A stretch of 64,000 nt of DNA. Source: Candidatus Rhodobacter oscarellae. Lineage in GTDB: Bacteria > Pseudomonadota > Alphaproteobacteria > Rhodobacterales > Rhodobacteraceae. Below, one piece after another: positions 5,956 to 60,639 of the stretch. The notes beneath the pieces are model-generated. The model saw only the letters and a program-made list of their open reading frames with translations, made no database searches and was not told the DNA's origin. The position numbers and the translations under genes were made by a program. Within the stretch, counting starts at the first letter, position 1. Each line of letters begins with the position of its first letter. The stretch lies in the NCBI RefSeq assembly GCF_001078595.1, contig NZ_LFTY01000002.1, positions 1,012,151 to 1,076,150 of the forward strand. The letters are read 5' to 3'.

Positions 5956-7233
5956 CTAGACAAAGTATGATCCCGCGACGCCCAACGCCGCGACGATCAG
6001 CAAGGTCGATATCATACCGACCCTCAGCCAAAGCATCAGCACGCCCGCGATCACGGCAAGCAGCGCGGCGGTGACGTCGAGCGTCGCCAGCTCGGGCGAC
6101 AGTAGATGCAGCGGGCCAAGTTGCGTCGTGTTGACCTGTGCGAAGAACACATGCGTGGCGAACCAAAGCGAGAGGTTTAGGATCACGCCCACAACCGCGG
6201 CGGTGATGGCCTGCAGCGCGCCCGCGAGGCGGGGCCGGGTCGAGATCCACTCGATGTAGGGCGCGCCCGCGAAGATCCACAGAAAACAGGGCACAAATGT
6301 CACCCAGACCGTCAACAGCGCCGCCGCCAGCGCCAGGCCCCATCCGCCAGCGCCGTATCCGGCCAGAAAACCCACGAACTCGGTCACCAGGATCAAGGGG
6401 CCGGGCGTGGTCTCGGCCAGGCCCAGCCCGTCCATCATCTGCTGGGTCGAGATCCAGCCCTGCACCTGCACGACCTCCTGGGTCATATAGGCCAGCACCG
6501 CATAGGCGCCGCCGAAGGTCACGATGGCAAGCTTTGAAAAGAACAGCCCGACCTGCGTCAAAAGCTCTTGGCCGGTCAGCCAGAGCACGCCGATCGGCGC
6601 CCACCAAAGCGCGCCCCAGAGCGCGACTGTTCTGACCAGCCCGGCGCTTGGCGAGGACGCCCGCAGGTCGGACCTGTCCGACAAGGGCGCAGGAGCCTCC
6701 GCCCCAGGCCCGCCGCGCAGCCAGCCATATAGCGCCGCCGTCGCGATGATCAGGGGGAAGGGCAGCGCAAAGGCAAAGATCGCCAGAAAGGACAGCCCGG
6801 CCAGGACCCATCTATCCAACGAGCGCAGCGCCTTATTCGCCACTTTCAGGAGGGCCTGGAGGACGATCACGACAACCGCCGCCTTGACCCCCAAGAAGAC
6901 CGCCTCGACCAGCGGCACCTGGCCCAACCAGACATAGAGCCCGGCAAGCGCCGCCATCACCAGCGCGCCGGGCAGCACGAATAGAAGCCCCGCGATCAGC
7001 CCCCCCGGAACGCCGCGCAGACGCCAGCCGCAATAGGTGGCCAGCTGCATCGCCTCGGGCCCCGGCAGAAGCATGCAAAAGCTCAGCGCGTTCAGAAACT
7101 GCGCCTCGCTGAGCCATGGCCGGTCCTCGACCAGCTCCTTATGCATCACGGCGATCTGCGCGGCGGGCCCGCCGAAGGACAGAATGCCGATGCGGAAGAA
7201 GGCCCACAGCAGTTCTCGAAAGGATGCGTCCAT
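5956..7233 (-). CDS. chrA: Chromate efflux transporter ChrA
   Basis: CHR-family inner-membrane exporter of chromate. The 425-aa protein has two homologous membrane halves, each with the CHR motif: FFRIGILSFGGPAAQIAVMH near the N-terminus and FFSKLAIVTFGGAYAVLAYM in the second half, plus LLPGPEAMQLATYCGW. The ATG at 7233 lies one base after the stop of chrB (TGA-G-ATG), so translation is probably coupled. After the TAG stop the same frame stays open for 31 further codons before TGA. The longer in-frame extension upstream is out of frame with chrB and not real. Confidence 0.93.
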   Translation of the reverse strand: MDASFRELLWAFFRIGILSFGGPAAQIAVMHKELVEDRPWLSEAQFLNALSFCMLLPGPEAMQLATYCGWRLRGVPGGLIAGLLFVLPGALVMAALAGLYVWLGQVPLVEAVFLGVKAAVVVIVLQALLKVANKALRSLDRWVLAGLSFLAIFAFALPFPLIIATAALYGWLRGGPGAEAPAPLSDRSDLRASSPSAGLVRTVALWGALWWAPIGVLWLTGQELLTQVGLFFSKLAIVTFGGAYAVLAYMTQEVVQVQGWISTQQMMDGLGLAETTPGPLILVTEFVGFLAGYGAGGWGLALAAALLTVWVTFVPCFLWIFAGAPYIEWISTRPRLAGALQAITAAVVGVILNLSLWFATHVFFAQVNTTQLGPLHLLSPELATLDVTAALLAVIAGVLMLWLRVGMISTLLIVAALGVAGSYFV

Positions 7234-15183: not shown

Positions 15184-15686
15184 TCACACCGGAGTTCTGC
15201 CGCACCATGGCGCGCTATAACGCCTGGCAGAACAAGAGCTTGCAGGTGGCCGCAGATGGGCTTGCCGAGGACGCCCGCAGGGCGGATCGCGGCGCCTTCT
15301 TCGGGTCCATCTTCGGCACGCTCAACCACCTTCTTTGGGCCGACACGATCTGGATGTCGCGCTTTGACGGCTGGAGAAAGCCCAAGGGGGGCATTTCTGA
15401 CAGCCCGCGTTTCACCTCCGAATGGGTGGCCCTTAAGGCCGCGCGCGGGGATGCGGACCAGCGGATCAAGACCTGGGCGCGCAGGCTGACAGAGGCGGAT
15501 CTGCAGGGCGATTTGGCGTGGTTTTCCGGTGCGTTAGGCGCCAATGTTCAGAAATCCTACGGGTTCTGCGTGCAGCATTTTTTCAACCACCAGACCCACC
15601 ACCGTGGCCAGGTCCACGCGATGCTCACCGCGGCGGGGGCAAAGCCCGCCGATACCGACCTCTTCATCATGCCCGAGGATGCCTGA
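15180..15686 (+). CDS. DinB-family (four-helix, metal-dependent) protein
   Basis: A 168-aa protein with DinB/YfiT-like helical-bundle features: metal-ligand His in FGTLNHLLWADTIWM (about 49) and in CVQHFFNHQTHHRGQVH (about 130-146). DinB superfamily members are metal-dependent thiol S-transferases or related enzymes in several actinobacterial and Bacillus cases. It is coupled by a 4-base overlap to the DUF1326 gene and stops one base before the dmdA start. Confidence 0.85.
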   Translation: MITPEFCRTMARYNAWQNKSLQVAADGLAEDARRADRGAFFGSIFGTLNHLLWADTIWMSRFDGWRKPKGGISDSPRFTSEWVALKAARGDADQRIKTWARRLTEADLQGDLAWFSGALGANVQKSYGFCVQHFFNHQTHHRGQVHAMLTAAGAKPADTDLFIMPEDA

Positions 15687-15687
15687 A

Positions 15688-16794
15688 ATGGCCGCTATCT
15701 CCCCCTCGCGCCGTCTGCGCCGCACGCCCTTTTCCGAGGGCGTCGAGGCGATGGGCGCCAAGGCCTACACGGTCTATAATCACATGCTTTTGGCCACGGT
15801 CTTCCGCTCGGTCGAGGAGGATTACCGCCACCTGAAATCCGCGGTGCAGGTCTGGGACGTCGCCTGCGAGCGCCAGGTGGAGCTTCGCGGCCCGGATGCG
15901 GGCAAGCTGATGAAGATGCTGACGCCACGCGACCTGCGCGGCATGCTGCCGGGCCAGTGCTATTACATGCCCATCGTCGACCAGACCGGCGGGATGCTGA
16001 ACGACCCCGTCGCGGTCAAGCTTGCCGAGGACCGCTATTGGATCTCGATTGCCGACAGCGATTTGCTGTTTTGGGTCAAGGGGATCGCCCACGCTCTTCA
16101 CATGGAGGTGCTGGTGGACGAGCCCGACGTGTCCCCTCTGGCCATTCAAGGCCCCAAGGCCGAGGAACTGATGGCGCGGGTCTTCGGCGACAGCGTACGC
16201 AACATCCGATTTTTCCGCTTTGGCTGGTTCGACTTCCAGGGGCGCAGCCTGGTTGTGGCGCGGTCGGGATATTCTAAACAAGGCGGGTTCGAGATCTATG
16301 TCGAGGGCTCGGACATTGGTATGCCGCTCTGGAACGCGCTCTTCGAGGCGGGCAAGGATCTGGACGTCCACGCGGGCTGTCCCAACCTGATCGAGCGGAT
16401 CGAGGGCGGCTTGCTGAGCTATGGTAACGACATGACCCGCGCCAACACGCCCCATGAATGCGGGCTGGGCCGGTTCTGCGACACGCAGACGGCGATTGGC
16501 TGCGTCGGGCGGGATTCGCTGCTGCGGGTGGCCCAGGACGGCCCCGTGCGCCAGATCCGCGCCATCGCCATCGAGGGCGCCCCGGTGCCCGGCTGCGGCG
16601 CGCCCTGGCCGATCATGGCGGGCCAGGACCAGGTGGGGCAGGTGACATCCGCCGCCTGGTCCCCCGATTACGAGACGAACGTGGCCATTGGCATGGTCCG
16701 CATGACCCATTGGGAGCCCTACACAGAGGTGGACGTGCTTCTGCCCGAGGGCGAGGTGCGTGCGGCGACCGTCTTTGGCGTCTTTTGGAATTGA
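15688..16794 (+). CDS. dmdA: Dimethylsulfoniopropionate demethylase DmdA
   Basis: Transfers a methyl group from DMSP to tetrahydrofolate, giving methylmercaptopropionate and 5-methyl-THF; cytoplasmic. The 368-aa GcvT-fold protein matches roseobacter DmdA closely: RRTPFSEGVEAMGAKAYTVY, VQVWDVACERQVELRGPDA, GGMLNDPVAVKLAEDRYW, SGYSKQGGFEIYVEGSDIGM and LLSYGNDMTRANTPHECGLG. The ATG at 15688 is chosen for the GAGGA 8 bases upstream and the family-like MAAISPSRRLRR start. It is followed after 12 bases by acuI, as in Ruegeria pomeroyi. It could be another GcvT-like methyltransferase, but the full-length similarity argues against this. Confidence 0.92.
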   Translation: MAAISPSRRLRRTPFSEGVEAMGAKAYTVYNHMLLATVFRSVEEDYRHLKSAVQVWDVACERQVELRGPDAGKLMKMLTPRDLRGMLPGQCYYMPIVDQTGGMLNDPVAVKLAEDRYWISIADSDLLFWVKGIAHALHMEVLVDEPDVSPLAIQGPKAEELMARVFGDSVRNIRFFRFGWFDFQGRSLVVARSGYSKQGGFEIYVEGSDIGMPLWNALFEAGKDLDVHAGCPNLIERIEGGLLSYGNDMTRANTPHECGLGRFCDTQTAIGCVGRDSLLRVAQDGPVRQIRAIAIEGAPVPGCGAPWPIMAGQDQVGQVTSAAWSPDYETNVAIGMVRMTHWEPYTEVDVLLPEGEVRAATVFGVFWN

Positions 16795-16806: not shown

Positions 16807-17790
16807 ATGTTTAACGCACTCGTGGTCCGCAAAGAGGGCGAGGAAAAGCCCGTCGCAGGGGTGGAGCAGATCGGCGAGGACATGCTGCCCGAGGGCAACG
16901 TGACCGTCGCGGTGGAATACTCCACGGTGAACTACAAGGACGGGCTCTGCATCGGGCCGGGCGGCGGGCTGGTGCGCAACTACCCGCATGTGCCGGGGAT
17001 CGATTTCGCGGGCACCGTCGAGGCGTCGGACGACGACCGCTACACGCCCGGCGACAAGGTCGTGCTGACCGGCTGGCGCGTGGGCGAGGCGCATTGGGGC
17101 GGCTACGCGCAGAAGGCGCGGGTGAACGCCGATTGGCTGGTGCCGCTGCCCGCCGGTTTGGACACGCGCCAGGCGATGGCCGTGGGCACGGCGGGCTTCA
17201 CCGCGATGCTGGCGGTGATGGCGCTGGAGGATCACGTTCTGAAGGGCGGCCCCGTGCTGGTCACCGGTGCGGCTGGCGGCGTGGGCTCGGTCGCCACCGC
17301 GATCCTGGCCAATCTGGGCCATGAGGTCGCCGCGGTCACCGGGCGGCCTGAGACCGAAGAGTACCTGCGCGGGCTCGGCGCCACGCAGATCGTGCCCCGC
17401 GAGGAGCTGAACGAGACCACCAAACGGCCCTTGGAGAAAGAGGTTTGGGGCGGTTGCGTCGACGCCGTGGGCGGCGAGATGCTGGCCCGGGTGCTGGGGC
17501 AGATGCAGTATGGCGCCAGCGTCGCCGCAGTGGGCCTGGCCGGAGGGGCAGGGCTGCCCGCCACGGTGATCCCATTCCTGCTGCGCGGCGTGAACCTGCT
17601 GGGCATCGACAGCGTCATGCAGCCCTTCGAGAACCGCCTCCCCGCCTGGGAGCGCATCGCCAAGCACCTGCCGATGGACAAGCTGGAGGCGATGGTGCGG
17701 CCCGCGACCCTGTCGGACCTGCCGCAGCTGGGGCGCGACATCCTCAAGGGCCAGGTTAAGGGCCGCGTTGTGGTTGATGTGAATAGTTAG
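16807..17790 (+). CDS. acuI: NADPH-dependent acryloyl-CoA reductase AcuI
   Basis: Reduces acryloyl-CoA to propionyl-CoA, detoxifying the acrylate product of DMSP cleavage. The 327-aa medium-chain reductase has the MDR core (TVNYKDGLCIGP, PHVPGIDFAGTVE), the nucleotide-binding GAAGGVGSVA motif, and the YhdH/AcuI-type end (LLRGVNLLGIDSVM). GAGGAG lies before the start. It forms the end of the dmdA operon. The last 168 bases are repeated at 18838-19005, beyond the DUF4239-like gene, so this copy's 3' end may have been supplied by recombination. Confidence 0.93.
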   Translation: MFNALVVRKEGEEKPVAGVEQIGEDMLPEGNVTVAVEYSTVNYKDGLCIGPGGGLVRNYPHVPGIDFAGTVEASDDDRYTPGDKVVLTGWRVGEAHWGGYAQKARVNADWLVPLPAGLDTRQAMAVGTAGFTAMLAVMALEDHVLKGGPVLVTGAAGGVGSVATAILANLGHEVAAVTGRPETEEYLRGLGATQIVPREELNETTKRPLEKEVWGGCVDAVGGEMLARVLGQMQYGASVAAVGLAGGAGLPATVIPFLLRGVNLLGIDSVMQPFENRLPAWERIAKHLPMDKLEAMVRPATLSDLPQLGRDILKGQVKGRVVVDVNS

Positions 17791-17864
17791 CGCCCTAATA
17801 CAGGGCTTGACTGCACGGTAAAAACAAGACCAGGCTAAAAGATCTATTGGCCTGGTATTAAGAT

Positions 17865-18824
17865 ATGTATTTTTCGCTGCCGAAGTTTCTGAACCTCATC
17901 TTCGTATTAGGGACGGTTTACCTATTTGCGCAAAGCAATTTGGCACCGTCTTGGACTCCTCTGCTTTTGTTGCTCCCGATGCTCCTGCTCGTCAGCGGAA
18001 CACACGCGAGTTTAGGTGCGGTCTTAACAACACGCGCGCTCGTGCCCTTGTCTGCCGGGCTCTTCATGATGGCGCTTTATGATGCAATGCCGTTACTTTT
18101 GGGGGGCGGAGAAGATTTTATGACGATTGCGAATTTTGGTTTTGCCGAACCTGACCCGTCAGTCATTAATTTTGAAGCCGATAGCTTTTACCTAGAGGCG
18201 GTCAGTGTGCTCTATGCGATGTTTTCTGGGTTTTTGTTGTTTAAGGGCCTCGACGACCTCGGCGAGCTAAGAGAAGCCCTTGTCGAAGAGGCGACCTGCA
18301 TCGGGTCGATTGAGAAATACTCTGACATCATATTGAAGTGCCAAGAAACGTCGGACTGTAAGCAGCTATCGAACCAGTTGCGCGATTTATTGCGGGACTA
18401 CGTCCAGCGGGTCATTGAGTTTGTGAAGAATGGTCCGACAGCGGAGAATGATGTAGTGATTTCGAAGGCCACAGCGGTTGTGGTGCAAATCGTCCCAAAG
18501 ACGGATGTTGCCAATAACGCACAAGCGGCGATTTTGAACGCGTTTGACGAACTTGCACGTGCAAGGTCTCGCCGGTCGCGCGCGATGGGCAACCGGTTGC
18601 CACCCATGGTAATGACATTCCTACTGTTGATGTCGATCTCAATGGTGATGCCGTTTTTTGGTGCGCCCGTCGACGGATTTTCGACGAACCATATCTACAT
18701 CTTTTTGATGACATGCTGTTTTACCTTTGTGTTCATGCTTCTTTTGGACCTCAATGATCCATTTGACGGCTATTGGCAGATTTCGATGGCACCGTTCGAG
18801 GAAATTCGCCGACGGTTGGCTTAA
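17865..18824 (+). CDS. DUF4239-like (bestrophin-like) membrane protein, inserted in the acuI 3' region
   Basis: A 319-aa membrane protein with two N-terminal hydrophobic stretches (about 5-45 and 55-80), a TM at about 118-130, a cytoplasmic helical region with many Glu/Arg, and two C-terminal TMs (about 246-265 and 275-295), ending DLNDPFDGYWQIS, the DUF4239/bestrophin-like signature. It is visibly AT-richer than the flanking genes and lies between two copies of the acuI 3' end, so it looks horizontally acquired. An ion-channel role is inference from the bestrophin-like label only. Confidence 0.75.
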   Translation: MYFSLPKFLNLIFVLGTVYLFAQSNLAPSWTPLLLLLPMLLLVSGTHASLGAVLTTRALVPLSAGLFMMALYDAMPLLLGGGEDFMTIANFGFAEPDPSVINFEADSFYLEAVSVLYAMFSGFLLFKGLDDLGELREALVEEATCIGSIEKYSDIILKCQETSDCKQLSNQLRDLLRDYVQRVIEFVKNGPTAENDVVISKATAVVVQIVPKTDVANNAQAAILNAFDELARARSRRSRAMGNRLPPMVMTFLLLMSISMVMPFFGAPVDGFSTNHIYIFLMTCCFTFVFMLLLDLNDPFDGYWQISMAPFEEIRRRLA

Positions 18825-18837
18825 GGCATGTTGTGCC

Positions 18838-19005
18838 CCCTTCGAGAACCGCCTTCCCGCCTGGGAGCGTATCGCCAAGCGCCTGCCGATGGACAAGCTG
18901 GAGGCCATGATGCAGCCCGCGACCCTGTCAGACCTGCCGCAGCTGGGGCGCGACATCCTCAAGGGCCAGGTCAAGGGCCGCGTTGTGGTTGATGTAAACG
19001 GGTAA
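18838..19005 (+). pseudogene. Duplicate 3' end of acuI
   Basis: These 168 bases repeat 17623-17790 with scattered third-position changes (roughly 90% identical by eye), encode the last 55 AcuI residues plus a stop in frame, and have no start of their own. The hairpin at 19018 follows it directly, so this is probably the ancestral end of the operon, displaced by the insertion. Confidence 0.9.
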
Positions 19006-19017
19006 CAGAACGCGCGG

Positions 19018-19050
19018 AGGTTGGCTTTTCCACGAAAGGGCCAACCTTTT
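19018..19050 (+). terminator. Rho-independent-like terminator of the dmdA operon
   Basis: An 8-bp stem (AGGTTGGC 19018-19025 / GCCAACCT 19040-19047) with a 14-nt loop, ending in a short T run. It lies 13 bases after the displaced acuI end. Confidence 0.7.
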
Positions 19051-19100
19051 GCCACATGAGCCCGACACATCCCTGAACCCAGTGATTGAGGGATGGTGTC

Positions 19101-19790
19101 ATGTTCACGTCAGAGAACCCGATTTTTGAATTCCGCGGCCCCTTTGGGGTGCCGGTGCAGATCTCACCGAGCCTTATTTTCTTGGTGTTTCTTTACGTTG
19201 GCTTTGGCGGCGGCGCCCGCGAGATGGCCTATGATCTGATGTTCCTGGTGATCGTGATGGGCTCGATCTTTCTGCACGAGGTGGGCCACGCCTGGGGCAG
19301 CTTGGTGCAGGGCCAGCCGGTGCGGCGCATCGTGCTGAACGGCTGCGGCGGGTTCTGCGAGCGCGAGCGCTCGGCCACCCGCTACGAGCAAGAGCTGATC
19401 GTCGCCATGGGGCCCATCGTGAACGCAGTGCTCTGGGCGGTGTCCTCGCTGATCGCCCAGTGGATCTATGACCCTGAAATCTATTGGGTTTTCGCCACCG
19501 TTGCCTGGGTGAACCTGTCGCTCTTAATCATCAATCTGCTGCCGATCACGCCGCTGGATGGCTCCAAGCTGTTTAACCTGCTGCTGTGCCGGATCATGTC
19601 CGCGGGCTTCGCGCGGAGGGTCTGCGGCTTTGTCGGGCTCCTGGTGGCGGGGGTCTGCCTTTTGTTCCTGGCGTTCTGGCTCGTCATCGACCCGCTGGGC
19701 ACCCTGAACTGGTGGCTGGTCGTGGCGCTGATGGTGCTGCTGCCCGCGATGCCAGCGCATTGGCGGATGCTGCTGGGGCGGGCGGCTTGA
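19101..19790 (+). CDS. Site-2 protease family (M50) membrane metalloprotease
   Basis: A 229-aa intramembrane protease. The zinc motif is HEVGH (59-63), and the third-ligand segment is ITPLDGSKLFNLL (about 148-160) in place of the usual NPDG. About six TM segments are present, and there are no PDZ or CBS domains. The cytosolic/periplasmic substrate is unknown. The ATG at 19101 is chosen for the upstream GAGGGATGG; an in-frame TTG at 19086 is less likely. It stands alone after the dmdA operon terminator. Confidence 0.88.
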   Translation: MFTSENPIFEFRGPFGVPVQISPSLIFLVFLYVGFGGGAREMAYDLMFLVIVMGSIFLHEVGHAWGSLVQGQPVRRIVLNGCGGFCERERSATRYEQELIVAMGPIVNAVLWAVSSLIAQWIYDPEIYWVFATVAWVNLSLLIINLLPITPLDGSKLFNLLLCRIMSAGFARRVCGFVGLLVAGVCLLFLAFWLVIDPLGTLNWWLVVALMVLLPAMPAHWRMLLGRAA

Positions 19791-19903
19791 TTGACACGTG
19801 CCACGCTTGGCAAAGTTAATGAAATCTTGCCCTAGCGCGCGCAGTTTGCGGGTCCACGCCGTCCGAATGGCCGGAAAGGCCTTATTTCATTGAGAAAACC
19901 GAT

Positions 19904-42370: not shown

Positions 42371-43405
42371 TTAGGCGGCGCGCGCGGGCCGCAACGCGTT
42401 GGGAAGCAGGCGCGCAGAGCTGATCCTGGGCAGGTCCATCTCGGGGATCTCGCGCGCGGGCCGGGTCGCATCATTGTCGAAGGCGAACTCTTGGTGCTGC
42501 GGCAGGTAGGTCTCCGCCGCCAGCCCCTCGGCCAGGATCAGCTCATGGCCGTCCGTCTCGATGTGGTAATAGGTGAAGCTCTCGGGCATCTTGGCGACTT
42601 GATAGATCGTCTCGCCATTCACCAGCGCGCCGGCGTTTACCAAGTACCCGTCCAAATAGACCGCATGATCGGGCGAGAGCAGCAGGTCGCGCTCATTGCC
42701 CAGAGCGCCAGCCGAGATGCGGATCGGGTTGACCTTGGCGGGATGCGCCAGCGGCGTGTCGATGGTGCTGCGGCCCAGCCAGCGCACGGTCGTGGTGCCG
42801 CCATCCGCGGTGGCCAGCAAATCGCCGTCGCAGAGGTCCTCGACCAAGGCAAAGCCCTGCGGCGTGGCGATGCGCGTGCCCTCACAAAAGCAGCTCAGCG
42901 TGGCGTTTAGGGAACTCACAACGAAACGTGGACTGTTACCAGAAAACGCTGTCGGCGTGAATCGGATCGCCGAGAATGACCCGACCACATCGCTGAAAGA
43001 AAATCTGGGAAAAGGAGCTCCGTCACCCGCCACGCGTACGACATTTGAGGTGCCGTCGTTAGGCCCGACAAAAGTGACGTTCATCGTCCCGCGTCCCATG
43101 TGGCCAGTCAACGTAAGCGGTGCGTTTACGGTGCCGTTAAAGACAGTCTGACCCATAGCAGTTGCAAGAAGGGTAAAGACCTCTTGCGTGCCAGCATTAC
43201 CTGCGGCTCCAGCATTCCAACTGGCGCGCAAAGAAGAAAGAACAAACGCATTGTCAAAAACTGCAGTAATCCTGTTGGCTCCGTCACCATTCAATGTTTG
43301 GAACTGAAAACTGGCACCAGAGTTGGTGAATGTGACTGAACCGGTATTGGTGACTGAAGCCGTACTAGCGAAGTGAATAGTCTCAAAATCGAGGAACTGT
43401 ACCAT
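42371..43405 (-). CDS. Hint-domain protein, tandem copy A
   Basis: A 344-aa protein with a beta-rich N-terminal domain (about 1-175; NTGSVTFTNSGASFQFQTLN) and a C-terminal Hint (hedgehog/intein-type, Hint_2-like) domain from LSCFCEGTRIATPQGF (about 182) through LLLSPDHAVYLDGYLV and beyond. The Cys in CFCEGTRI is the expected autocatalytic nucleophile. There is no signal peptide, as in type-I-secreted roseobacter Hint proteins. AAAGGAGG precedes the start. It is 1.2 kb from a near-identical paralogue and has the same promoter sequence. Confidence 0.85.
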   Translation of the reverse strand: MVQFLDFETIHFASTASVTNTGSVTFTNSGASFQFQTLNGDGANRITAVFDNAFVLSSLRASWNAGAAGNAGTQEVFTLLATAMGQTVFNGTVNAPLTLTGHMGRGTMNVTFVGPNDGTSNVVRVAGDGAPFPRFSFSDVVGSFSAIRFTPTAFSGNSPRFVVSSLNATLSCFCEGTRIATPQGFALVEDLCDGDLLATADGGTTTVRWLGRSTIDTPLAHPAKVNPIRISAGALGNERDLLLSPDHAVYLDGYLVNAGALVNGETIYQVAKMPESFTYYHIETDGHELILAEGLAAETYLPQHQEFAFDNDATRPAREIPEMDLPRISSARLLPNALRPARAA

Positions 43406-43592: not shown

Positions 43593-44624
43593 TCAAGCGG
43601 CCGCGCGTATCCCGAGACCTGCGGGCAGCAAGCGCGCAGAGGTGATCCTGGGCAGGTCCATCTCGGGGATCTCGCGCGCGGGCCGGGTCGCGTCATTGTC
43701 GAAGGCGAGCTCTTGGTGCTGCGGCAGGTAGGTCTCTGCCGCCAGCCCCTCGGCCAGGATCAGCTCATGGCCGTCCGTCTCGACGTGGTAATAGGTGAAG
43801 CTCTCGGGCATCTTGGCGACCTGATAGATCGTCTCGCCATTCACCAGCGCGCCGGCATTCACCAGGTACCCGTCCAGATAGACCCCGTGGTCGGGCGAGA
43901 GCAGCAGGTCGCGCTCGTTGCCCAGCGCGCCCGCCGAGATGCGGATCGGGTTGACCTTGGCGGGATGCGCCAGCGGCGTGTCGATGGTGCTGCGGCCCAG
44001 CCAGCGCACGGTCGTGGTGCCGCCATCCGCGGTGGCCAGCAAATCGCCGTCGCAGAGGTCCTCGACCAAGGAAAAGCCCTGCGGCGTGGCGATCCGCGTG
44101 CCCTCGCAAAAGCAGCTCAGCGTGGCGTTTAGGGAAGTTAGAAAGAAACTTGCATTGCTACCAGTAAACGCTGTCGGCGTGAATCGGATCGCCGAGAATG
44201 ACCCGACCACATCGGTGAAAGAAAAATTGCCAAGATTAGCTCCGCCACCCGCCACGCGTACGACATTTGAGGTGCCGTCGTTAGGCCCGACAAAAGTGAC
44301 GTCCATCGTCGCGTTACCTATGCGGCCAGCCAACGTAAGCGGTGCGTTTACGGTGCCGTTAAAGACAGTCTGACCCATAGCGGTTGCAAGAAGGGTAAAG
44401 ACCTCTTGCGTGCCAGCATTGCCTGCGGCTCCAGTATTCCAACCGGCGTTCAAAGAAGAAATAGACGCACTGCTAAAAGATGCAGTAATCCTGTTAGCTC
44501 CGTCACCATTCAATGTTTGGAACCGAAAGCTGGCACCAGAGTTGGTGAATGTGACTGAACCGGTATTGATGACTGAAGCCGTAAAATCCGAAACGGAAAT
44601 CTCATAATCGAGGAACTGCACCAT
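43593..44624 (-). CDS. Hint-domain protein, tandem copy B
   Basis: A 343-aa paralogue of copy A. The Hint domain and C-terminus (about 178-330) are nearly identical, while the N-terminal domain differs in short clusters (for example FETIHFASTASVTN versus YEISVSDFTASVIN; GAPFPRFSF versus GANLGNFSF) between identical blocks. The upstream 120 bases are also almost the same, so the whole gene plus promoter was duplicated. The autocatalytic Cys motif CFCEGTRI is intact. Confidence 0.85.
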   Translation of the reverse strand: MVQFLDYEISVSDFTASVINTGSVTFTNSGASFRFQTLNGDGANRITASFSSASISSLNAGWNTGAAGNAGTQEVFTLLATAMGQTVFNGTVNAPLTLAGRIGNATMDVTFVGPNDGTSNVVRVAGGGANLGNFSFTDVVGSFSAIRFTPTAFTGSNASFFLTSLNATLSCFCEGTRIATPQGFSLVEDLCDGDLLATADGGTTTVRWLGRSTIDTPLAHPAKVNPIRISAGALGNERDLLLSPDHGVYLDGYLVNAGALVNGETIYQVAKMPESFTYYHVETDGHELILAEGLAAETYLPQHQELAFDNDATRPAREIPEMDLPRITSARLLPAGLGIRAAA

Positions 44625-59415: not shown

Positions 59416-60639
59416 ATGACACTCGATCTTGACTTCGTCCGGGCGCAATTCCCGGCCTTTTCAGAGCCTTCGCTTGCGGGGCAGTCCTTTTTTGAGAACG
59501 CGGGCGGGTCCTATACCTGCGGCGCGGTGATCGATCGCCTGACGCGGTTCTACCGCGCGCGAAAGGTCCAGCCATACGCTCCCTACCCGGCGTCCCGCCT
59601 GGGCGGCGAGGAGATGGACGAGGCGCGCACGCGCCTGTCCGCAATGATGGGCGTCGATGAGGACGAGCTGAGCTTTGGCCCCTCCACCACGCAGAACGTT
59701 TATGTCCTGGCGCAGGCCTTCGGCGAGATGCTTGAGCCGGGCGACGCCATCATCGTCACCAACCAGGACCACGAGGCCAATACCGGCGCCTGGCGCCGCC
59801 TGGCCGAGCGGGGCATTGAGCTGCGCGAGTGGCAGATTGATCCCGAAACCGGGCATCTCGACCCGGTGGCCCTGACCGCGCTTCTGGACGACCAGGTCAA
59901 ACTGGTGTGCTTCCCGCATTGCTCCAACGTGGTGGGCGAGATCAACGACGTGGCCGCAATCACCCAACTGGCGCATGCCGCCGGGGCGGTGACCTGCGTG
60001 GACGGCGTCTCATACGCGCCGCATGGGCTGCCGAATGTCGCCGAACTTGGGGCCGATATCTACATGTTCTCCTCCTATAAGACCTATGGGCCGCATCAGG
60101 GCATCATGGTCGTGCGCCGCGCATTGGCAGAGCGCCTTCCCAACCAGACGCATTCCTTCAACGCCGGATCGCTTCCCATGCGCTTCACGCCCGCGGGGCC
60201 TGACCATGCCCAGGTCGCGGCCTGCGCCGGGATCGCCGACTATATCGACGCGCTCTATGCCCATCACATGGGCGGACAAGAGGCGCCCGCGGCGCGCGCC
60301 GAGGCCGTGCATGACATGATGCGCGCCCAGGAGGCCGCCGTGCTGCAGCCGCTGCTGGACTATGCCGCGAAGAAGAATTCCGTGCGGCTGATCGGCCCGG
60401 CTCGAGCGGAGCGGCGGGCGCCGACGGTGGCGCTGGACTGCGCCGCGCCGGGCGAGGATCTGGCGGCAAGCCTGGCGCCCCACGGCATCATGGCCGGGGG
60501 CGGCGATTTCTACGCCGTGCGGCCTCTGACAGCGATGGGCGTGGACCCAGACAAGGGCGTGCTGCGCTTGTCCTTTGTGCACTATACCTCCGCTGAAGAT
60601 GTTGACCGATTGGTGGACGCGCTAGATCGGGTTTTATGA
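59416..60639 (+). CDS. Class V aminotransferase / cysteine desulfurase-like protein
   Basis: A 407-aa PLP enzyme. The PLP Lys is in MFSSYKTYGPHQG, with phosphate-cup FGPSTTQNVY and HCSNVVGEIND. It resembles the group of class V enzymes without a clear NifS active-site Cys loop, so the substrate (an amino acid or selenocysteine-like compound) is unknown. The start at 59416 has no strong ribosome site. The stop overlaps the phrB start by 4 bases. Confidence 0.85.
   Translation: MTLDLDFVRAQFPAFSEPSLAGQSFFENAGGSYTCGAVIDRLTRFYRARKVQPYAPYPASRLGGEEMDEARTRLSAMMGVDEDELSFGPSTTQNVYVLAQAFGEMLEPGDAIIVTNQDHEANTGAWRRLAERGIELREWQIDPETGHLDPVALTALLDDQVKLVCFPHCSNVVGEINDVAAITQLAHAAGAVTCVDGVSYAPHGLPNVAELGADIYMFSSYKTYGPHQGIMVVRRALAERLPNQTHSFNAGSLPMRFTPAGPDHAQVAACAGIADYIDALYAHHMGGQEAPAARAEAVHDMMRAQEAAVLQPLLDYAAKKNSVRLIGPARAERRAPTVALDCAAPGEDLAASLAPHGIMAGGGDFYAVRPLTAMGVDPDKGVLRLSFVHYTSAEDVDRLVDALDRVL

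Follow-up and report, generated by a model that had tools for sequence, protein, structure and literature searches.

A foreign Bestrophin-like gene flanked by two copies of the acuI 3' end: a probable case of one-sided recombination

We found that the last 168 bases of acuI occur twice in the 64,000-nucleotide stretch of DNA that we analyzed (the window, at contig positions 1,012,151 to 1,076,150), once on each side of a single inserted gene. The duplication of the acuI end is real and has clear limits. We propose, with a probability of about 60%, that it arose in a single horizontal acquisition by homology-facilitated illegitimate recombination (HFIR) from a very close relative. One-sided recombination accounts for the structure in a single step. 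The event is in all likelihood an ordinary one, of a kind that is already known. The relevant features, with their positions in the window, are as follows.

15613 to 16794, + strand: dmdA (DMSP demethylase), directly 5' of acuI; NCBIfam NF009133 (dimethylsulfoniopropionate demethylase), 662.7 bits against a cut-off of 410
16807 to 17790, + strand: acuI (acrylyl-CoA reductase), an intact open frame; TIGR02823, 440.7 bits against a cut-off of 297
17623 to 17790, + strand: copy 1, the last 168 bases of acuI; dense match with copy 2 as far as 17783
17784 to 17864, + strand: presumed left junction and leader of the insert, from the end of the alignment and from folds of 17740 to 17864, 17760 to 17864, and 17784 to 17864
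17865 to 18824, + strand: cargo gene of 319 amino acids, Bestrophin-like (PF14023), from the Pfam match and GC content by codon position
18825 to 18837, + strand: right junction, 13 bases between the cargo stop codon and copy 2
18838 to 19005, + strand: copy 2, an orphan acuI 3' end and presumably the displaced resident end, from the alignment and its place in the tree as sister of copy 1
19006 to 19060, + strand: terminator-like hairpin with TTTT, 3' of copy 2; fold of -20.7 kcal/mol, with the same stem in a longer fold
19107 to 19790, + strand: M50-type peptidase gene, next downstream; PF02163, E value of 5e-15

Together, dmdA and acuI make up the DMSP operon in the window. An excerpt of PMC3338564 places dmdA directly 5' of acuI in most roseobacters. 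With the narrower model NF051456, acuI scored 413.2 bits, below the cut-off of 440. The acuI stop codon lies 74 bases from the cargo start codon, and the cargo stop codon lies 13 bases from copy 2. The presumed left junction and leader consist of the last Ser codon and stop codon of acuI, followed by two hairpins and then the cargo start codon. Folding showed that these hairpins are strong, span 17784 to 17858, and separate the acuI stop from the cargo start without a T run. The main stem of the first begins at, or a few bases before, position 17784, where the two acuI ends cease to match (folds from 17740, 17760, and 17784). The initial annotation had placed the operon terminator after the second copy. 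There is a strong TTTT hairpin at that place, but it is absent from the list returned by a terminator consensus scan and hairpins also follow copy 1; we regard a terminator there as likely.

The two copies form a direct repeat with a spacing of 1,215 bases and are identical at 155 of 168 positions (92.3%), slightly more than the 90% or so that had been estimated at first. As also stated then, the changes fall mainly at third codon positions (9 of the 13 differences). When the last 7 bases are left out, 152 of 161 positions are identical (94.4%; E value of 1.2e-69 between the flanks), which is far above chance. In those last 7 bases the match breaks up, with copy 1 reading Asn-Ser-stop and copy 2 reading Asn-Gly-stop. 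Copy 1 begins at codon 273 of acuI, in phase, and carries that frame through to its stop; copy 2 is an isolated gene end only. The first 17 bases are identical in both copies, and the longest identical run, 41 bases, lies in the middle of the repeat rather than at an edge. We found no long match between the DNA upstream of 17623 and that upstream of 18838. We also searched our own genome at the protein level, scoring all 35 of 35 candidates. Besides the intact acuI and the orphan end, this gave a single paralogue, of 29% identity, and no third copy of the acuI end.

When the window was scanned, direct repeats 50 bases or longer fell into five families, including the acuI-end repeat. Three of the others come from one tandem gene duplication at 42.4 to 44.8 kb, and one is a 79-base pair of 72% identity at 30.6 kb. 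The tandem duplicate genes (42371 to 43405 and 43593 to 44624, both on the - strand) are 92.7% identical over 1,140 nt. Both have a C-terminal Hint domain (PF13403, Hint_2), and their N-terminal parts are more divergent.

The inserted gene had been described as DUF4239-like, which we take to be the former name of PF14023. Consistently with this, the cargo matched PF14023 ("Bestrophin-like") with an E value of 6.2e-24 and 85.3 bits, over the Pfam gathering cut-off of 32. Its GC content at the first, second, and third codon positions is 0.519, 0.372, and 0.606. The corresponding third-position values of seven neighbors are higher, at 0.84 to 0.90 for PpoB2, DUF1326, dmdA, acuI (90%), M50, and nrdJ and 0.81 for DinB. 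This comparison agreed with the initial annotation that the insert is AT-richer, and the cargo is foreign in composition. We also found that the cargo is rare. Relatives at an E value of 1e-10 or better occurred in 2 of 393 other sampled genomes of the bacterial family, with protein identities of 27 and 29%, and PF14023 as a whole occurred in 30 of 388 genomes of that family, our own included. Among 398 sampled genomes of the phylum, the cargo protein was found at an E value of 1e-6 or better in our own genome only. Taken together, the third-position contrast and the rarity in the family make a foreign origin of the inserted DNA well supported.

We found no match for the cargo protein in PADLOC or NCBIfam and one chance-level match in PHROGs, and none was found in plasmids or phages. 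Searches with short exact peptide patterns, which reach close relatives only, gave 65 pattern matches for the cargo among genome contigs, 4 for the cargo among viral contigs, and 32 for the acuI-end peptide among viral contigs, and none of these was confirmed. A single-sequence fold of the cargo protein had a mean pLDDT of 43.8 and was uninformative on ion-channel activity. We then compared the 1.5-kb flanks of 30 PF14023 loci, drawn from 34 matches, for direct repeats. Three loci (L181, L182, and L205) were too short, so that overlapping ends were compared and the results were uninformative. Among the 27 loci that could be judged, the acuI locus alone had such a repeat, of 161 bases, and the flanks of the other 26 gave no match over 59 bases.

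To place the two ends among their relatives, we compared them with acuI ends from 122 loci (42 plus 80, the latter from titled genome records), which are not all independent, since some genomes contributed more than one (e.g., L083 and L131 or L090 and L141). Removing L125 and eight tails with 105 or fewer of their 168 bases matching (L089, L119, L124, L129, L138, L139, L158, and L161) left 113 ends, of which the 111 distinct ones entered the tree. The low matching of the eight tails likely reflects differences in length or frame. The acuI end of the nearest relative matched the two copies at 140 and 141 of 168 positions, and no candidate donor end closer than 141 of 168 was found among the relatives compared. 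Each of the 113 relatives differs from either copy at 27 sites or more, and the copies differ from one another at 13. Residue 7 of the tail is Pro in both copies and in none of the 113 relatives; residue 15 is Asp in 111 of the 113 and is not Asp in either copy. In the tree, the copies were sisters with a support of 100/98, although the bootstrap had not fully settled, and their terminal branches were similar (0.05 and 0.04). At the 13 differing sites, the letter that is commoner among the relatives was that of copy 1 at 8 and that of copy 2 at 5. The only other member of the genus examined (G001) has an acuI of 84% protein identity. Since the copies are sisters and have rare residues in common, any donor should have been a very close relative. 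By the criterion set out in the initial annotation, the grouping of the copies argues against a more distant roseobacter donor, but this grouping alone does not make the event a recent local duplication.

The initial annotation had also suggested, as one reading, an element that brings along a copy of its target end and so keeps acuI intact. Within the stretch examined, a second acuI end was present at none of the 42 loci and at one of the 80 (L125, a probable artifact). With L125 set aside, none of the 121 other acuI loci had a second end; at four of them (L101, L116, L174, and L176), fewer than 1,215 bases were available 3' of acuI. In L125 (Litoreibacter arenae DSM 19593, 5957 to 6213), an N joins two identical stretches, and the apparent duplication is probably a scaffold-gap or assembly artifact. 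Artifacts of this type could mislead scans for gene-end repeats. The acuI end was found at an E value of 1e-5 or better in 309 of 394 genomes of the family, with only two candidates scored per genome, and on that basis four genomes had two matches: our own (G000), G010, G321, and G336. The second match was a broken full-length paralogue in G010, one of two full-length paralogues in G321, and a contig end in G336. The initial annotation had further proposed a check of whether DUF4239-like genes recur behind acuI; we found no cargo homologue 3' of acuI at an E value of 1e-3 or better in any of the 122 loci. Last, we scanned 123 partly overlapping sources (1.499 Mb) for repeats that were 80 bases or longer, at least 75% identical, and 300 to 6,000 bases apart. 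This gave four same-strand pairs, namely, the acuI-end pair, the tandem duplication in the window, a pair in two neighboring open reading frames in L067, and a pair within an open reading frame in L089. The event was seen once, and none of the loci examined gave evidence of a recurring mobile element.

We next considered the codon positions at which the copies differ. Third positions account for 6 of 9 differences over 161 nt and for 9 of 13 over 168 nt. Among pairs of relatives with 5 to 25 differences, the third-position share is 0.71 (2,706 of 3,810 differences in 162 pairs). Against a uniform share of 1/3, the copies gave P values of 0.042 (161 nt) and 0.0088 (168 nt). In the three closest pairs of relatives, 30 of 34 differences are at third positions (0.88), and by comparison the constraint on the copies looks slightly weaker (P = 0.079 and 0.057). 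Of the 9 differences between the copies, 3 change a residue; the corresponding rate across the broader set of relatives is 0.237 per difference. The spread over codon positions fits working orthologues, which favors two alleles that diverged while both were functional over one local duplicate in decay. A mixed history, in which copy 1 stayed under constraint and copy 2 decayed where it lies, may also account for the differences.

According to the HFIR model, a linear donor fragment would have carried the 3' part of the acuI of a close relative, followed by the Bestrophin-like gene. The donor acuI part would have aligned with its resident counterpart, or with sequence 5' of that gene, and a crossover would have followed. 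The non-homologous far end of the fragment, 13 bases past the cargo stop, would then have been joined inside the resident acuI at codon 273. As a result, acuI would end with the donor 3' end (copy 1), followed by the cargo. The resident 3' end would persist as copy 2, a nonfunctional remnant of 168 bases, with the terminator that is likely the resident one and the M50 gene behind it. We infer the existence of the donor, the donor origin of copy 1, the linear fragment, the illegitimate nature of the right junction, and the vehicle. As expected for HFIR, the foreign DNA stands at the non-homologous side (cargo third-position GC of 0.606 versus 0.81 to 0.90). The part of PMC3240628 that we draw on describes HFIR in transformation as joining one homologous anchor with one illegitimate end, and it states that the DNA lost in such events is usually about equal in length to the DNA gained. 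The illegitimate end is often joined at a microhomology of 3 to 10 bases. An excerpt of PMC5361080 proposes HFIR for the displaced effector ends of Vibrio type VI secretion system (T6SS) arrays. Among the readings of the initial annotation, replacement of the resident acuI end by that of a related donor fits best, with the amendment that this donor must have been very closely related, as the copies are sisters.

We asked which side of the cargo is resident. The DNA 3' of acuI is variable among relatives. A relative of the M50 gene (44%) lies 3' of acuI in 1 of the 122 loci, that of G073, at 2.07 kb behind acuI and with a 593-codon gene, transporter-like by eye, in between. Judging by this one relative, copy 2, the hairpin, and the M50 gene are plausibly the resident side. 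We found no DNA match in G001 to window positions 19006 to 19900. In 77 of the 122 loci, an aminotransferase class V gene (PF00266) is found no more than about 6.3 kb 3' of acuI, and in G001 it is as near as 28 bases. In the window, it is at 59416 to 60639 (+ strand), 40 kb from acuI, though the G001 order is preserved in the matches between nrdJ and 37.3 kb. The aminotransferase gene has apparently moved out of the acuI flank in this genome. In G001 (L047, 8112 to 9377), that gene is interrupted by DNA that holds, on the opposite strand, an open reading frame of 421 codons, which looks like an IS110-type transposase.

We also looked for recombinases and possible vehicles. The PF14023 cargo is the sole gene of the insert, and no recombinase was found in it. 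A search with PF00589 (tyrosine recombinase) gave 12 matches in the genome and none within 58 kb of the locus (contig positions 1,029,773 to 1,031,155). The nearest is 58.7 kb away, and the nearest matches on the same contig lie on either side, at 970,575 to 971,057 and 1,193,080 to 1,193,616. TIGR02217, a family linked with the Rhodobacter capsulatus gene transfer agent (RcGTA), is present in the genome. RcGTA packages random fragments of about 4.5 kb according to an excerpt of PMC9690577, and the order to which this bacterial family belongs is said, in an excerpt of PMC9836097, to conserve gene transfer agents particularly well. Delivery of the donor fragment by a gene transfer agent is possible.

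Besides HFIR, the acuI end could have been doubled in this lineage during an illegitimate insertion, by template switching or by tandem duplication with capture of foreign DNA, after which the copies drifted. The sister grouping of the copies and their common residues, rare or unseen in relatives, are what such a duplication would leave, and so are the 8-to-5 split of the commoner letters, the similar terminal branches, and the slightly looser constraint relative to the closest pairs of relatives. However, the 9 of 13 third-position differences fit the share in orthologues better than the 1/3 of free decay. Direct repeats 1.2 kb apart would also have had to persist until they had diverged by 8%, and foreign DNA would be needed on top of the duplication. 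We therefore consider a local duplication to be possible but rather unlikely.

Very unlikely, in our judgment, is a small mobile cassette that inserts site-specifically into the acuI 3' end, restores it with its own copy, and is moved by a recombinase supplied in trans. The anatomy fits, with a restored gene, a cargo, and a displaced end; the 17 identical starting bases could be a core site, and the genome has tyrosine recombinases to supply. Against this stand the lack of a recombinase in the insert and the distance to the nearest PF00589 match, the lack of a second acuI end in the 121 other loci (with the limit on four of them given above), the unconfirmed matches in viral contigs for close relatives of the cargo and the acuI end, the absence of the cargo from plasmids and phages, the 26 judged PF14023 loci without such repeats, and the position of the 41-base run away from the edges of the repeat. 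The self-targeting element of the initial annotation thus found no support beyond the anatomy. We give still less credence to the more specific idea of a minimal recombinase-free cassette at the 3' end of a DMSP-cycle gene that brings its own copy of this end to keep the host gene whole, ferries single genes between sister strains, and depends for its movement on a recombinase or gene transfer agent acting in trans. Least probable of all is a Campbell-type single homologous crossover of a circle bearing the acuI 3' end and the cargo. A single such crossover would leave exactly two gene ends, one on each side of the cargo, but the circle would have been of only 1,215 bp, or the rest of it would have been deleted later, and the cargo was found in no plasmid record.

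We concluded that acquisition by HFIR probably accounts for the locus. The acuI locus is then a readable natural case in which a single foreign gene was added behind an operon and the operon was left unbroken; it is a case and not a principle. A cassette, if true, would be exciting, and if sister strains had the same end with other cargoes, this would offer a route to finding small recombinase-free cassettes. In any case, the duplicated acuI end merits a line in the annotation.

The locus resembles several known systems. In the tRNA- and tmRNA-gene islands of Islander, as described in an excerpt of PMC4383910, a restored target end and a displaced fragment likewise bound the foreign DNA. Unlike those islands, the acuI insert has no integrase, one cargo gene, and a protein gene as its target, and no recurrence was found. 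In the T6SS clusters of Vibrio cholerae, with their displaced effector ends and orphan immunity genes, an import likewise displaces an old gene whose 3' end can be shifted downstream. According to the part of PMC5361080 that we draw on, those clusters are recurrent and polymorphic, whereas the acuI case is a single locus in a metabolic gene with no sign that the remnant is used. With HFIR in transformable bacteria and Escherichia coli, as far as an excerpt of PMC3240628 describes it, the acuI locus has in common the addition of about 1 kb of foreign DNA and, according to the proposed model, would also have in common one homologous anchor and one non-homologous end. It differs in that the event at acuI is natural and old.
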